Source: Caldisericales bacterium (GTDB lineage: Bacteria; Caldisericota; Caldisericia; JAAYUI01). From it: DNA of 64,000 nucleotides. Shown here in pieces: positions 45,570 to 50,001 of the stretch (the first letter of the stretch is position 1; each line of letters opens with the position of its first letter). The notes below the pieces were generated by a model, which was not told the origin of the DNA, did no database searches, and saw only the letters and a program-made list of their open reading frames with translations. The position numbers were made by a program, and so were the translations under genes. The stretch spans positions 1 to 64,000 of the forward strand of contig JAAYUI010000019.1 in assembly GCA_012517765.1 (NCBI GenBank). The letters run 5' to 3'.

Positions 45570-45600
45570 AAAGCCGGAGGTTTTGCCTCCGGCTTTTTTA
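45570..45600 (+). terminator. Terminator after the PFOR operon
   Basis: AAAGCCGGAGG-TTTT-GCCTCCGGCTTT: about a ten-pair GC-rich stem followed by TTTT. The last bases abut the stop of the restriction gene on the minus strand. Confidence 0.9.
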
Positions 45601-48600
45601 TTTGAACGGGAGCGGCTCGAGCGATTTTACAATCTTGACGGTCTCAATGCTGACAGTAACAATCTTTTTGATTAGCCTGACAATATATTCCGGCTCATCA
45701 TCCTTGTTTGGGTCATTTGTTATCCCGGACCTCTCGTCAGTCGTCACGCGGTACTGGTCAATGATCCAGTCCAGCGCTGACCTGTTGCCAAGCCTGTATT
45801 CAAAAACCTCCGGCGGTATCCCTGCAAGGGTCAGGAAATCGTTGTAGACGATCTGCGTTTTGTCCTTTGAAAGCTTCATCTTCTCAACGCGCCAGTCAAG
45901 CGCCACACCAGGCACCTCAACCATCTCGAGCGGGTACTCTGTCTGGGATTCGTAGTTTACATGCAAATCCGCAAGCTTGCGGCCGGCATCAGAAAAAGCC
46001 CAAAAATCAGGTGCGAAAGGAATCCTTGGCAGTTCACGCCTGAGGTTTGCCTCATATTCCTTGCGATAGCCAGGGTGGTGCAAAAGGCCATAAACATAAT
46101 AAAAAATGTCCCATTTGGTGATTTGGCGAGGCCCTTCTCCTTCTGTCAAAGGATTTTCGCATTTCTGCCCCTCTCCTTCTGTGGGAGGGTTTTTATATTT
46201 CTGTCCCTCTCCTTCCAGGAGAGGGTCCGGGTGAGGTGGTTTTTGGATGGTTTTGAAGGTCTTTAAAACCCCCTCATCCTTTTTCCTTCTCCCGGAGGGA
46301 GAAGGATCTGAGTGATTTCCTACTTGCTCGGAGGGGAGAGAAGGATCTAAATGATTTTCTGCTTGCCTGGAGGGAGAAGGATTCGAGTAGTTGTCTGTCT
46401 GCTTAGAGGGAGAGGGGGCTGGAGAGCCTGCAGACCCAGAGGGTCCAGCAAAAGAAGAATAATGCTTGCGGAACTCCTCCAGGGCCCAGTCAGTGATATT
46501 CTCTTTTCTGCCAGTGCCGTCCTCGTTGTAGGTATAGAAGGGGAAGGTTTGACCATTCGGAGTCAACTGCACATCAGGAATGCAATCTGCCATCAATGCA
46601 AAAAATGGCCTGTCCATTCCAATCCCTTTAACACAAATAACCTTATTTTCGGACTCGGTTTCAGGGGTGGGGAAGATTTTTGGAAATACATATACTTCTT
46701 CATTAAGTATTCTATTGAAATATAAAGATGATTTTATATATGGTCTATAAATTGATACTCTTAATTCAATTTCAGAAAAATCCACCAATTTCTCTCTTGC
46801 CAGATCAAGCTTTAAATCTCTGCTCCAGCTAATTTTCTTGTCATCAATAGTTACAAAACCATCCATGTCTGGTTTATTATTTTTAAGTGGTTTCGGATTC
46901 AGCCTGCTCCATCTGAAAACATGCTCATTGTAGGTATCTATTGTATTTTTTATGTTTCTGGCAAGTACTTCTCTTTGAAAATTATATGCCCACACATCCC
47001 TATTTGTTTTGACTCCATTACTAAACATTTTGAAAATTACTTTATTCGCCTTGCCATTCTCTTCTTTTCCCTCTTTTGTTCCCAGAGAAATAAAACCCTC
47101 AAAATCATCACTCAAACCCTCGGTCAGCCAGGTGTTGTTCTTGTCCGGCACAATCTCTTCCCAGTCGATTTTTGATTCATTGACTCTTGAGTCAATGAAT
47201 TCATATTTCTGCTCTTTTCTCCAGTATTCATCAACACGGGAGTAGAAAATTCTGGGGAGATTGCCTAAAACCCCCTCATCCGTCGCTTCGCGACACCTTC
47301 CCCCAGCAGGGGAAGGATTGGTGGGGTCACCCGGCTTTCCAGAAGAAACATTTTCAATATTTGCGCTCCCCTCTCTTTTTGCCACAGAAACAATTTTCAT
47401 GGCCCCCTCTCCTTCCAGGAGAGGGCTGGGGTGAGGTGGTTTGTCCTTCGATTTTTTGATGAAGAAATTTATGCTGACACCCACCTGTATCCCAAACACA
47501 TTGTGTGTTGTTCCGGACAGTTTGGGGTTTTTCCTGACATTTCCGCCAAGGTCAAGCACATAGACCAAATCAAATTCGTCTTTTAGGTGTTTCCTCATCC
47601 CGTCAAAAGCAATCTGGTCAATAAAACTGTTGTTTGTCACAACCGCAACAATCCCCTCGCCATTTTTGTTTATCCTGTCAGAGGCCCAGCGGATCGCCTT
47701 TACATAGACATCGGACAAAGCATTTTTGTTTGTGGCGCTCGAATCTTTTGCGTAAGTCTCGGCCACCCTTTTGTCAATGACAGGGTATTTTCTGTTTTTG
47801 TTGTTGTCATTCTCGTTGACCTGGCCGGCATTGTAGGGCGGATTACTTATTATCACGAATATCGGCGTTTTCTTCTGCTTTTCCACCCTCTCGGTATTTT
47901 TCTCGGTCATTGAGAAAAGGTATGACCCATCCGGCTCTGCAAGCTGGAAGGTGTCCACAAAGCAGATGCCCTCAAAAGGCTGGTAGGTCCCTGTTTTTTC
48001 CCAGTACTCGTGCTCGATGTTCATGCAGGCCACATAATAAGGCAGGAGCATGACCTCGTTGCAATGCAGCTCATTTTCATATTTTTGCGTCAATGCAGTT
48101 TGCCTGATTGACCTCATGACGTTCATGATGAAGTTTCCAGTGCCGACAAAAGGGTCTAGGATGTGGACACCCTCGTCAGAGAGCGACCTGCCAAACTCCC
48201 TTTGCAAAATGTCCTCAACCGACTTGACCATGAAATTTACAATTGGTTGTGGCGTGTAGACTATCCCGTGGGTGTCCGCCACCTTGATGGCAAACCCCTG
48301 GAAGAACTTTTCGTAGACAGTGTTCATGAAGCCCTGCATTTCGCTCCAGTCCTTGATGTCACGGGCCGCTTCCTCGATTGCCCTGTAGAACCTGTCCAGC
48401 TTTGAGGTGAATTCACTGCGGTTGAACGATCGGGAAGCCAGCGCCTCAATCACTTTTTCAATTTCTGCGGCAATGACGTTCCTTTTTATGAAATCAGGGT
48501 TGTTAAAAACTGTCCTGAAGAGCCTTTCTGTTAGCAAATGCTGGATGAGCATTTCTTCAAGGGCGGCCTCTGAGATGTTTGGGTTTATGGATTTTTTGCA

Positions 48601-49191
48601 CAACTCGGCAAAAGAGGCAAACGCCACCTTGTATTTCTGGTTTTTTGCCTGCTCTTCATCAATTATCTGCTGGAGCCCCTGGGCAAGCCTTGGTATCTCT
48701 GCCTTGAATTGCTCAACAGCCTTGTGAAAATCTTCGATGATCGGTTGTTCAAATTCAAAAAAGATTTTTAGGGCCTCGACGAGTTTTTCCGGCTTTGTCA
48801 CATCCTCGTCAAAAACCTGCCTGCCATTCTGATATATGACAATGCGTTTTGGCTCCTGGAACATGATGTTTTTGTTCGGGTAGCCCCTCTCAAACTTTTT
48901 CTTTATTTCAACATCAAGTTTGTCGCCTGTGTCTTTTGCCTCCCAGATGCCATGATGGAGCTTGAATTCATCAACAAGCAGGCCATCATAACGATTGCTG
49001 TGGCCGCCATTTTTTTCTGAATACTGCTCGACAAGGGTGTAATTGAACTGCTGGGCACATTTCTTCAGGAGCGAGGAAAAAGCAGGTGCTACGGAACCTT
49101 CTTTTACATGCCCCAAATCCCCAAGTTTTGAGATCTCTTCAAAATAGTCTTTGATTGCTTTGTGGTCTGGTCTTATATTTAATGTTTTCAT
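45598..49191 (-). CDS. Fused nuclease-DNA methyltransferase restriction enzyme (type IIG / type ISP-like, no helicase), with repeat-derived inserts
   Basis: The 1197-residue protein has an N-terminal PD-(D/E)xK-like nuclease (YDGLLVDEFKLHHGIWEAK), a helical linker, an adenine-N6 methyltransferase (SAM motif ILDPFVGTGNFIM; catalytic ISNPPYNAG) and a long C-terminal target-recognition part. This is the type ISP layout without the helicase, close to type IIG. Two proline/glycine-rich inserts do not belong to the fold: one encoded at about 47265-47443 (PPHPSPLLEGEG, NPSPAGG) and one at about 46130-46440 (PPHPDPLLEGEG, PSPSGRRKKDEG). They are translated copies of a repeat also present at 49680-49985. 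The frame is intact. The ATG at 49191 has GGGGTGG before it; the frame open to 49296 is probably untranslated. Confidence 0.88.
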   Translation of the reverse strand: MKTLNIRPDHKAIKDYFEEISKLGDLGHVKEGSVAPAFSSLLKKCAQQFNYTLVEQYSEKNGGHSNRYDGLLVDEFKLHHGIWEAKDTGDKLDVEIKKKFERGYPNKNIMFQEPKRIVIYQNGRQVFDEDVTKPEKLVEALKIFFEFEQPIIEDFHKAVEQFKAEIPRLAQGLQQIIDEEQAKNQKYKVAFASFAELCKKSINPNISEAALEEMLIQHLLTERLFRTVFNNPDFIKRNVIAAEIEKVIEALASRSFNRSEFTSKLDRFYRAIEEAARDIKDWSEMQGFMNTVYEKFFQGFAIKVADTHGIVYTPQPIVNFMVKSVEDILQREFGRSLSDEGVHILDPFVGTGNFIMNVMRSIRQTALTQKYENELHCNEVMLLPYYVACMNIEHEYWEKTGTYQPFEGICFVDTFQLAEPDGSYLFSMTEKNTERVEKQKKTPIFVIISNPPYNAGQVNENDNNKNRKYPVIDKRVAETYAKDSSATNKNALSDVYVKAIRWASDRINKNGEGIVAVVTNNSFIDQIAFDGMRKHLKDEFDLVYVLDLGGNVRKNPKLSGTTHNVFGIQVGVSINFFIKKSKDKPPHPSPLLEGEGAMKIVSVAKREGSANIENVSSGKPGDPTNPSPAGGRCREATDEGVLGNLPRIFYSRVDEYWRKEQKYEFIDSRVNESKIDWEEIVPDKNNTWLTEGLSDDFEGFISLGTKEGKEENGKANKVIFKMFSNGVKTNRDVWAYNFQREVLARNIKNTIDTYNEHVFRWSRLNPKPLKNNKPDMDGFVTIDDKKISWSRDLKLDLAREKLVDFSEIELRVSIYRPYIKSSLYFNRILNEEVYVFPKIFPTPETESENKVICVKGIGMDRPFFALMADCIPDVQLTPNGQTFPFYTYNEDGTGRKENITDWALEEFRKHYSSFAGPSGSAGSPAPSPSKQTDNYSNPSPSRQAENHLDPSLPSEQVGNHSDPSPSGRRKKDEGVLKTFKTIQKPPHPDPLLEGEGQKYKNPPTEGEGQKCENPLTEGEGPRQITKWDIFYYVYGLLHHPGYRKEYEANLRRELPRIPFAPDFWAFSDAGRKLADLHVNYESQTEYPLEMVEVPGVALDWRVEKMKLSKDKTQIVYNDFLTLAGIPPEVFEYRLGNRSALDWIIDQYRVTTDERSGITNDPNKDDEPEYIVRLIKKIVTVSIETVKIVKSLEPLPFK
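46130..46440. repeat. REP-like and tandem repeat block inside the restriction gene (copy 1)
   Basis: Contains palindromic pieces such as CTCTCCTTCCAGGAGAG and CCTTCTCCCGGAGGGAGAAGG and units of about 36 bases. From 46189 to about 46305 it matches 49692-49807 almost base for base. On the coding (minus) strand it is read in frame, each 36-base unit giving 12 residues. Confidence 0.85.
47265..47443. repeat. REP-like repeat block inside the restriction gene (copy 2)
   Basis: Bounded by ACCCCCTCATCCGTCGC at one end and CTCTCCTTCCAGGAGAG with GGGGTGAGGTGGTTT at the other, the same end pieces as in copy 1. The middle differs. Also translated in frame. Confidence 0.75.
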
Positions 49192-49345
49192 TTCCACCCC
49201 TGTAGAATTACAAGAAACCAACATCAATTGATACATACAAATATATGCCAAGTCAACATTTTGAAGTATTGGAATTCCTTTGAAGGTGATTTTCAAAAAA
49301 ATCCAGGTTGTTGTATTTTGGAAACAAGCCAGCCATAATCAAAAC

Positions 49346-49657: not shown

Positions 49658-49679
49658 TTGAATATAAAAGTCTTCTCTT

Positions 49680-49985
49680 CCTATGAGAGAGTTTTTATAT
49701 TTTTGCCCCTCTCCTTTCAGGAGAGGGCCTGGGTGAGGTGGTTTTTGGGTGGTTTTGAAGGTCTTTAAAACCCCCTCATCCTTTTTCCTTCTCCCTCCGG
49801 GAGAAGGATTCGAGTGGCTTTACATTTGCCCGGAGGGAGAAGGATTTGGGTGATTTTCCATTTGCACGGAGGGAGAAGGATTTGGGTGATTTTCCATTTG
49901 CACGGGAAAAGGATTAGAGTATCTTTCATTTGCTTGGAAAGAGGATAATTTGAGTAGTTTTTTGTTTACTCTCTGAAGAAAAAAT
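49680..49985. repeat. REP-like and tandem repeat block in the spacer (copy 3)
   Basis: This fills the 380-base spacer between the small membrane protein and the ABC exporter. It starts with the REP-like palindrome CTCTCCTTTCAGGAGAG, continues with the segment shared with copy 1, and ends in 36-base units. Two of these (49831-49866 and 49867-49902) are identical; degenerate units flank them on both sides. I see no gene here. Confidence 0.88.
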
Positions 49986-50001
49986 TTGGTATTCTTTTTC
50001 C

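Follow-up and report, generated by a model that had tools for sequence, protein, structure and literature searches.

How does an intergenic palindromic repeat come to be translated inside a restriction enzyme, and what could have carried it there? This question is raised by a 64,000 nt stretch of DNA from a Caldisericales bacterium (contig JAAYUI010000019.1, positions 1 to 64,000; in the following "the window"), in which a restriction-modification (R-M) gene contains two blocks of a repeat that also lies between genes nearby. The initial annotation had read these blocks as mobile REP-like repeats and as a case of protein evolution by insertion of intergenic DNA.

A Type ISP enzyme with two repeat blocks

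Type ISP enzymes carry an N-terminal nuclease and a helicase motor; we take LlaGI and LlaBIII to be examples. The frame of the window gene is open throughout and gives 1197 aa from the ATG at 49191, or 1232 aa from a TTG farther upstream. Pfam matches of the protein to Type_ISP_C (1.3e-97), ISP_coupler (7e-19) and N6_Mtase (8e-12) place a coupler, an N6-adenine methylase and the Type ISP C-terminal specificity domain on a single chain, such that its identification as a restriction enzyme is borne out. The protein shares these domains with the Type ISP enzymes and differs from them by the two translated repeat inserts and by the lack of a Pfam match to a helicase family at E 0.01 within its 1197 aa; the helicase form is seen in L097. 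Intein families gave no match, and the splicing domains that surround an intein insert are absent from the window protein.

In an alignment of 33 rows the nuclease residues E84 and K86 near the N-terminus and the methylase residues D346-P347, G350-T351 and NPPY (450-453) are invariant. Given these motif residues, an active enzyme is the simpler guess, and nothing points to the inserts either tuning or inactivating it, as had been suggested. An AlphaFold2 model based on the 33-row alignment had a mean pLDDT of 77.4. Residues 587-642 and 916-1020 scored below 50, as did the stretches 422-427, 455-465 and 1153-1157, and most of the remainder scored above 70. The two linkers, announced as about 100 and 60 residues, thus measure about 105 and 58 residues in the model, at low confidence and predicted to be disordered. 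They lie around the target-recognition region and most homologues have no inserts there, in agreement with the expectation that the inserts fall at loops.

Both repeat blocks and the intergenic copy were found where the initial annotation had placed them (Table 1). A stretch of block 2 (46172-46335) and the intergenic copy (49674-49837) are 86% identical over 164 nt, which is far beyond chance. The intergenic copy is indeed located upstream of the gene, but it starts about 480 rather than 600 bases before the ATG. The proposed repeat unit of 36 nt is visible as a register in parts of the sequence (46134/46170 and 49801/49837), but coding indels among congeners measure 3, 24, 27, 39 and 42 nt and not 36 nt.

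Table 1. Positions of the gene, its repeat blocks and the neighbouring repeat in the window.
Feature	Position	Strand	Remarks
Type ISP restriction-modification gene with two translated repeat blocks	45598..49191	-	ORF, Pfam, motif residues, model
Stretch missing from the syntenic locus in three congeners	45607..49295		Includes the R-M gene; 122 nt in its place in G001
Repeat block 2, insertion site 2 (residues ~916-1020)	46130..46440	-	Two hairpin ends, spacer of ~20-25 nt, further repeat units; encodes ...DPSPSGRRKKDEGVLKTFKTIQKPPHPDPLLEGEG...
End L hairpin of block 2, CCCTCTCCTTCCAGGAGAGGG	46205..46225		
End R of block 2, tag TAAAACCCCCTCATCC and hairpin TCCTTCTCCCGGAGGGAGAAGGA	46264..46306		
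Coding stretch between the inserts, presumed target-recognition region	46441..47264	-	Congener alleles differ between the inserts
Repeat block 1, insertion site 1 (residues ~587-642)	47265..47443	-	Both ends, in reversed order compared to block 2; encodes PPHPSPLLEGEG...NPSPAGGRCREATDEGVL
End R tag of block 1	47266..47281		
End L of block 1, hairpin and GGTGAGGTGGTTT	47404..47442		
Intergenic repeat array	49672..49990		Common to all four genus genomes at the same locus

Homologues with and without inserts

A match to the window protein was obtained in 24 of 119 searched genomes, its own included; for one congener (G001) the match consisted of the repeat alone. In an alignment of 28 rows, inserts were present in the four rows from the genus and in none of the 24 others, two of which are truncated at a site. 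A wider set of named homologues comprised the best 80 of at least 566 matches. Among these 80, site 1 spans 27-38 residues in 76 (87 in the window protein), is cut in one and longer in three, namely in L226 (WOR-3), where repeat-like peptides are found, and in L277 and L280, where none can be recognised. Site 2 spans 40-95 residues in 68 of the same 80 (155 in the window protein), is truncated or split in 8 and longer in L226, L273, L274 and L287. In L226 and L287 site 2 holds a DUF559 domain flanked by repeat-like pieces, detected in L226 by Pfam and in both by a custom profile that had L226 among its seeds.

Unrelated linkers at the same sites had been named as the result that would speak against an insertion of repeats. 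A small number of homologues do have such linkers; in at least L226, L273 and L287, however, repeat-like peptides are present there, in two of the three together with DUF559, and we take this to strengthen the idea of recurrent insertion.

The repeat and the locus in the genus

The flanks of the window locus are syntenic in the three congeners G001, G002 and G003 (82-95% identity in long pieces). There the R-M gene is absent and the intergenic repeat is present, i.e. the repeat is common to the genus at this locus and the R-M gene is not. Block 2 aligns with the intergenic copy at this locus in G001 at 88.6% identity over 193 nt, and with the intergenic copies in the other three genus genomes at 83-88% over 139-212 nt. 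Against copies at other loci of the genus at most 78 nt could be aligned, with much lower scores. Local copying or later gene conversion would explain this resemblance of block 2 to the repeat of its own locus, and either fits.

A core motif of the repeat, CCTCACCCN{3,4}CCCTCTCC, was found in all four genus genomes and in none of the 45 other searched genomes of the class; a reversed control pattern was absent from the four genomes and had a single occurrence in the class. The genus has 31 motif copies, 13 of them within R-M-type genes in the sense frame. The hosts are ISP genes, a type IIG gene with the copy just before the specificity domain (window genome G000, and G003) and a further type IIG gene with the copy just before NPPY (G001, G003); both type IIG genes resemble BREX PglX at scores below the cut-off. 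Among other sense frames above 300 aa in the genus none was seen to hold the motif, and some copies lie in shorter or antisense frames. For the repeat-bearing type IIG gene of G001 and G003 (L087, L088, L095), an intergenic repeat stands beside the matching neighbours in G002. An FRG-TPR gene in G000, possibly a defence gene (L096:6150-7910, contig C107), has its start some 70 bases away from an intergenic copy of the repeat, and gene lengths at the matching place vary among the congeners.

The ISP enzymes of G002 and G003 are only about 24% identical to the window protein and nevertheless carry the same repeat family at both matching linkers and in the same frame. Gaps between coding alleles of the congeners (27, 27, 3, 3, 24, 3, 3, 27, 3, 39 and 42 nt, the last two occurring twice as two rows are identical) were multiples of three in 13 of 13 pairwise comparisons, or 11 when identical rows are counted once. 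For the intergenic array at the window locus this held for 7 of 32 pairwise gaps and failed for 25; in either count one event may be counted repeatedly, since the comparisons are pairwise. The earlier expectation that copy changes would preserve the frame is thus in agreement with the coding alleles.

Insert-free homologues, a locus that contains the intergenic repeat without the gene, disordered linkers and the kept frame together uphold the view that an intergenic repeat was inserted in frame. Translated repeat insertion at this locus is real and of a known kind: by description it resembles the Rickettsia palindromic elements (RPEs), short palindromic repeats that are found in frame in protein genes and are translated (PMC10969869). 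The passages of that article which describe them name no enzyme as their mover. The window repeats differ in having a candidate partner enzyme, which is encoded between the same ends and is also inserted at the same residue of ISP enzymes.

A DUF559 gene between the repeat ends

In G001, G002 and G003 an end R and an end L enclose a gene for a DUF559 protein, in the order hairpin, GGTGAGGTGGTTTT, DUF559 gene, AAAACCCCCTCATCC, hairpin. When block 2 is aligned with the G001 element, identity is 91% across 44 nt of end R and 93% across 41 nt of end L. The DUF559 protein begins with the end in translation, NPSPGGRRTKDEGVL, and block 2 contains the similar DPSPSGRRKKDEGVL in the same frame. From its sequence block 2 thus looks like the DUF559 element minus its gene. 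For block 1 the identity to end L is 90-95% in alignments of 39-52 nt, but end R is represented by its 16-nt tag only, which weakens our confidence in a derivation of the blocks from this element. A match of block 1 that ran a few bases into the end of the DUF559 gene was taken as chance. Two observations in G000 also count against such a derivation: at the locus of the element there is one repeat and no DUF559, and near the DUF559 gene that the genome does have (contig C145) none of four window-type motifs occurs. A different repeat of the CCTTCCCC...GGATGAGG type is adjacent to that gene (L343:678-1070), with a grammar like that of the right end of block 1.

The predicted model of the G001 DUF559 protein (mean pLDDT 84.8) has a Vsr-like fold that is also close to that of a homing endonuclease: Foldseek placed NGO0050 nearest (E 2e-8), followed by I-Bth0305I (4.4e-5) and, more weakly, Vsr (9e-3). 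This agrees with the naming of a DUF559 gene as a member of the EDxHD family in the section on inteins of PMC9403480, the match to I-Bth0305I being to its catalytic domain. Neither a target-site duplication nor movement of the repeats was seen; the mobility of the blocks, as well as their function, we infer.

The description of the repeats as REP-like held in part. In the account of PMC3116915, REPINs are hairpin repeats that form inverted pairs in intergenic positions and border genes for a single kind of enzyme. The genus repeats share the inverted hairpin pairs between genes; they differ in that they flank DUF559 and in that 13 of the 31 copies lie in R-M genes. Moreover, a search for the Y1 transposase (PF01797, E 1e-10) had no match in G000-G003, of which G001 and G003 are 74% and 69% complete, and it is on this result that membership in the REP/RAYT system fails.

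Association of the repeat with DUF559 across genomes

Among 386 genomes the motif was found in 76 (the reversed control in 8) and DUF559 at E 1e-20 in 66. Both occurred in 38 genomes, the motif alone in 38, DUF559 alone in 28 and neither in 282, corresponding to an odds ratio of 10 (p = 1.6e-14) in a test that does not model genome size. With one genome per family (152 genomes; 15/18/11/108) the odds ratio was 8.2 (p = 9e-6). For the motif and Y1_Tnp it was 1.7 (p = 0.04), with p = 0.5 at five or more copies.

Inverted repeats flanking DUF559 were tested at the 59 best-scoring loci, some of them embedded in larger genes, 55 of which had usable flanks. In 41 of the 55 the flanking repeats exceeded the 99th percentile of shuffled sequences. 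Among the controls this was the case for 14 of 101 neighbouring ORFs and for 13 of 200 ORFs from repeat-selected loci; the control flanks were cut slightly differently, being placed 60 nt into the ORF ends. Set against the flanks of other genomes, 10 of the 55 loci exceeded the 99th percentile and 27 were at or above the 95th, which counts against the association. We think that this comparison is less sharp than the shuffle test since the genomes share a repeat grammar.

Some other enzyme, the Y1 transposase or a different one, might instead move the repeats, with DUF559 being a passenger in repeat-rich places or serving e.g. in mismatch repair. The 28 genomes with DUF559 but without the motif tell against DUF559 as the mover, although other repeats may stand in for the motif there. 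So do 9 of the 40 genomes with at least five motif copies that have neither DUF559 nor Y1_Tnp, among them G383 with 155 copies. REPINs and RAYTs provide a precedent for repeats paired with a different enzyme (PMC3116915), and the DUF559 protein VsrA of Caulobacter is interpreted, in the part of PMC12907096 that deals with it, as a mismatch-repair nuclease. A Y1 mover is opposed by its missing match in the genus, and a passenger role by the much larger odds ratio for DUF559 than for Y1_Tnp and by the bracketing of DUF559 loci with repeats, which is far more frequent than for other ORFs. We therefore regard another mover as unlikely, while still giving it some weight. The link of the repeats to DUF559 nucleases is new and fairly well supported; among the listed papers of one open-licence library we found none on DUF559 with hairpin repeats.

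DUF559 in frame inside other proteins

DUF559 was matched at E 1e-20 in 11 open frames of at least 350 aa from the 386 genomes. R-M or DNA-methylase genes account for nine of them (Eco57I-like 2, MmeI-like 2, N6_N4 methylase 3, DUF1156 2), where we presume the DUF1156 proteins to be DNA methylases; the NCBIfam model of an anti-phage-associated DUF1156 protein matched one of them below its cut-off. In the other two, DUF559 lies between two tRNA-synthetase-like genes, with an apparently spurious upstream frame, and in frame upstream of a PurQ-like gene. The phylum of G126 (40 genomes) added four frames: HsdR twice at one site, an HsdS with a terminal DUF559 and an intein-like frame. The phylum of G361 (3 genomes) yielded nothing new, and a search of 44 plasmid records found no embedded DUF559, its features being named DUF559 or endonuclease and otherwise "none" or unannotated.

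The phylum of G374 (386 genomes) gave at least 49 frames of at least 350 aa among matches listed to about E 1e-36, all of which were viewed. Pfam was run on 8 of these 49, covering all kinds except the large protein and the MmeI-like frame (the latter covered earlier), and the others were assigned by eye from motifs. Among the matches listed, 44 frames come from one family, f256, with the hosts PriA (12), IspE-like (12), M14-type peptidase (9), radical SAM (6), PrmA (3) and a large protein (2); DUF559 lies merely in front in three IspE-like frames and at the end in the radical SAM proteins. In the PriA of many f256 species a DUF559 with repeat-like borders sits in frame just before the GxTASGKT motif (L388, L391, L394, L397, L416 and others). 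The five listed frames outside f256 are ISP (2), Eco57I-like (2) and MmeI-like (1, in G374 and counted already).

These data bear on the proposal that R-M genes are the specific target of the element rather than simply tolerant hosts. Outside f256, 16 of 19 long frames among the matches listed are R-M or methylase genes of several classes (14 without DUF1156), a count that includes the ISP frames of G765 and G479 and combines surveys with different E limits, L226 and L287 having come from the homologue search; some of these frames share an insertion site across distant lineages. Inside f256, by contrast, none of the 44 listed frames is R-M, many of them being instances of one site among related species. 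Every one of the seven motif copies in G222 falls within an open frame (L182-L187), including those of porphobilinogen deaminase and a cytochrome d1 domain protein, and six of the seven copies are in genes other than R-M, such that short copies need no R-M host. Specific targeting of R-M genes appears improbable to us. The stronger idea of R-M genes as the only hosts, suggested by the genus and the first survey, was dropped after the survey of G374's phylum and G222 and reduced to mostly R-M hosts outside f256.

At insertion site 2 the same position is used repeatedly. FRxxY precedes the insert in five enzymes, namely the window protein, L226 (WOR-3), L287 (Prolixibacteraceae) and two ISP frames from G374's phylum, in G765 and G479; the window protein has repeats only and the other four enzymes carry DUF559 there. 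In the ISP enzyme of G003 the insert is in the matching linker, and the neighbouring residues differ. The four embedded DUF559 domains are 41-48% identical in pairs, except for G765 and G479 with 73%; for the L226 and L287 domains closer relatives exist elsewhere. By this reading of the sequences DUF559 would have entered at one ISP residue at least three times, besides the insertion in the window. Such repeated use would fit a tolerant loop as well as targeted cutting. Insertion at the same site of homologous genes in distant hosts is one feature expected of homing elements, and the DUF559-bearing ISP enzymes show it.

The borders of the embedded copies that we viewed are mostly translated repeats and not splicing motifs, which sets them apart from inteins. 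A likeness to inteins is seen in two intein-like frames with DUF559 in an N6_N4 methylase (L336, L338), of which L338 has a second, repeat-bordered DUF559 farther on. Among eight proteins run, of which L337 and L340 are the only DUF559-bearing ones besides L338, the intein C-terminal model matched L338 only. In a quick DUF559 tree R-M-embedded copies were often neighbours; taxon sampling confounds this tree, so we draw no claim from it, and its marker rule labelled L443 as solo despite a Pfam ISP domain and L440 as solo though it resembles L445.

Divergence of the ISP alleles between the inserts

The inserts might be kept as recombination handles by which the enzyme swaps its specificity. Congener alleles are about 45% identical over some 470 nt and mostly 90-100% identical in the flanks, with inserts on both sides, and G002 has two such stretches, different from each other and located at two contig ends (ISP alleles L081, L082 and L083 of G002 and G003). 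However, both boundaries of the divergent stretch fall within conserved coding sequence, about 130-180 nt inward from the inserts, and thus the repeats are not at the breakpoints; the identity profile rules them out as breakpoints of an exchange of the recognition region. Repeat-flanked DUF559 is, furthermore, found in proteins without recognition domains. Retention as handles is accordingly very unlikely. That the gene is a pseudogene, or that misassembly placed the repeats in it, is hardly credible, for although the draft has 236 contigs and an estimated contamination of 5%, G002 and G003 have a different ISP enzyme with inserts at both corresponding linkers, and the window gene has an uninterrupted frame and conserved motif residues.

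Discussion

Probably, an element composed of a hairpin end, a DUF559 gene for a Vsr-like nuclease and a second hairpin end gave rise to the two blocks as non-autonomous, MITE-like copies, gained at linkers and tolerated there. An R-M gene would have been gained at the window locus, or lost by the three congeners, and copies of the element would have come to occupy two linkers of the protein. Their most likely mode of entry would be that of a homing endonuclease: DUF559 would cut the target and recombination would copy the element in, which makes the nuclease the presumptive mover of the repeats. Three things would allow the inserts to stay: they are read in an open frame, long disordered stretches are tolerated by the linkers, and frame-breaking indels are removed. 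For the enzyme the inserts would be close to neutral.

A broader proposal, which we put forward tentatively, is that DUF559 with hairpin ends forms a widespread class of bacterial mobile elements, not described as such in the open-licence papers searched, that homes in frame into genes without splicing and leaves the nuclease behind as an extra domain. Such elements would shed non-autonomous copies into linkers and would be found, outside one family, chiefly in several types of R-M genes.

DUF559, which Pfam lists as of unknown function, would thereby obtain a suggested role as the testable mover of a common repeat, whose motif occurs in 76 of 386 genomes. The elements would also show how restriction enzymes and, in f256, core enzymes such as PriA can acquire large extra domains and linkers.
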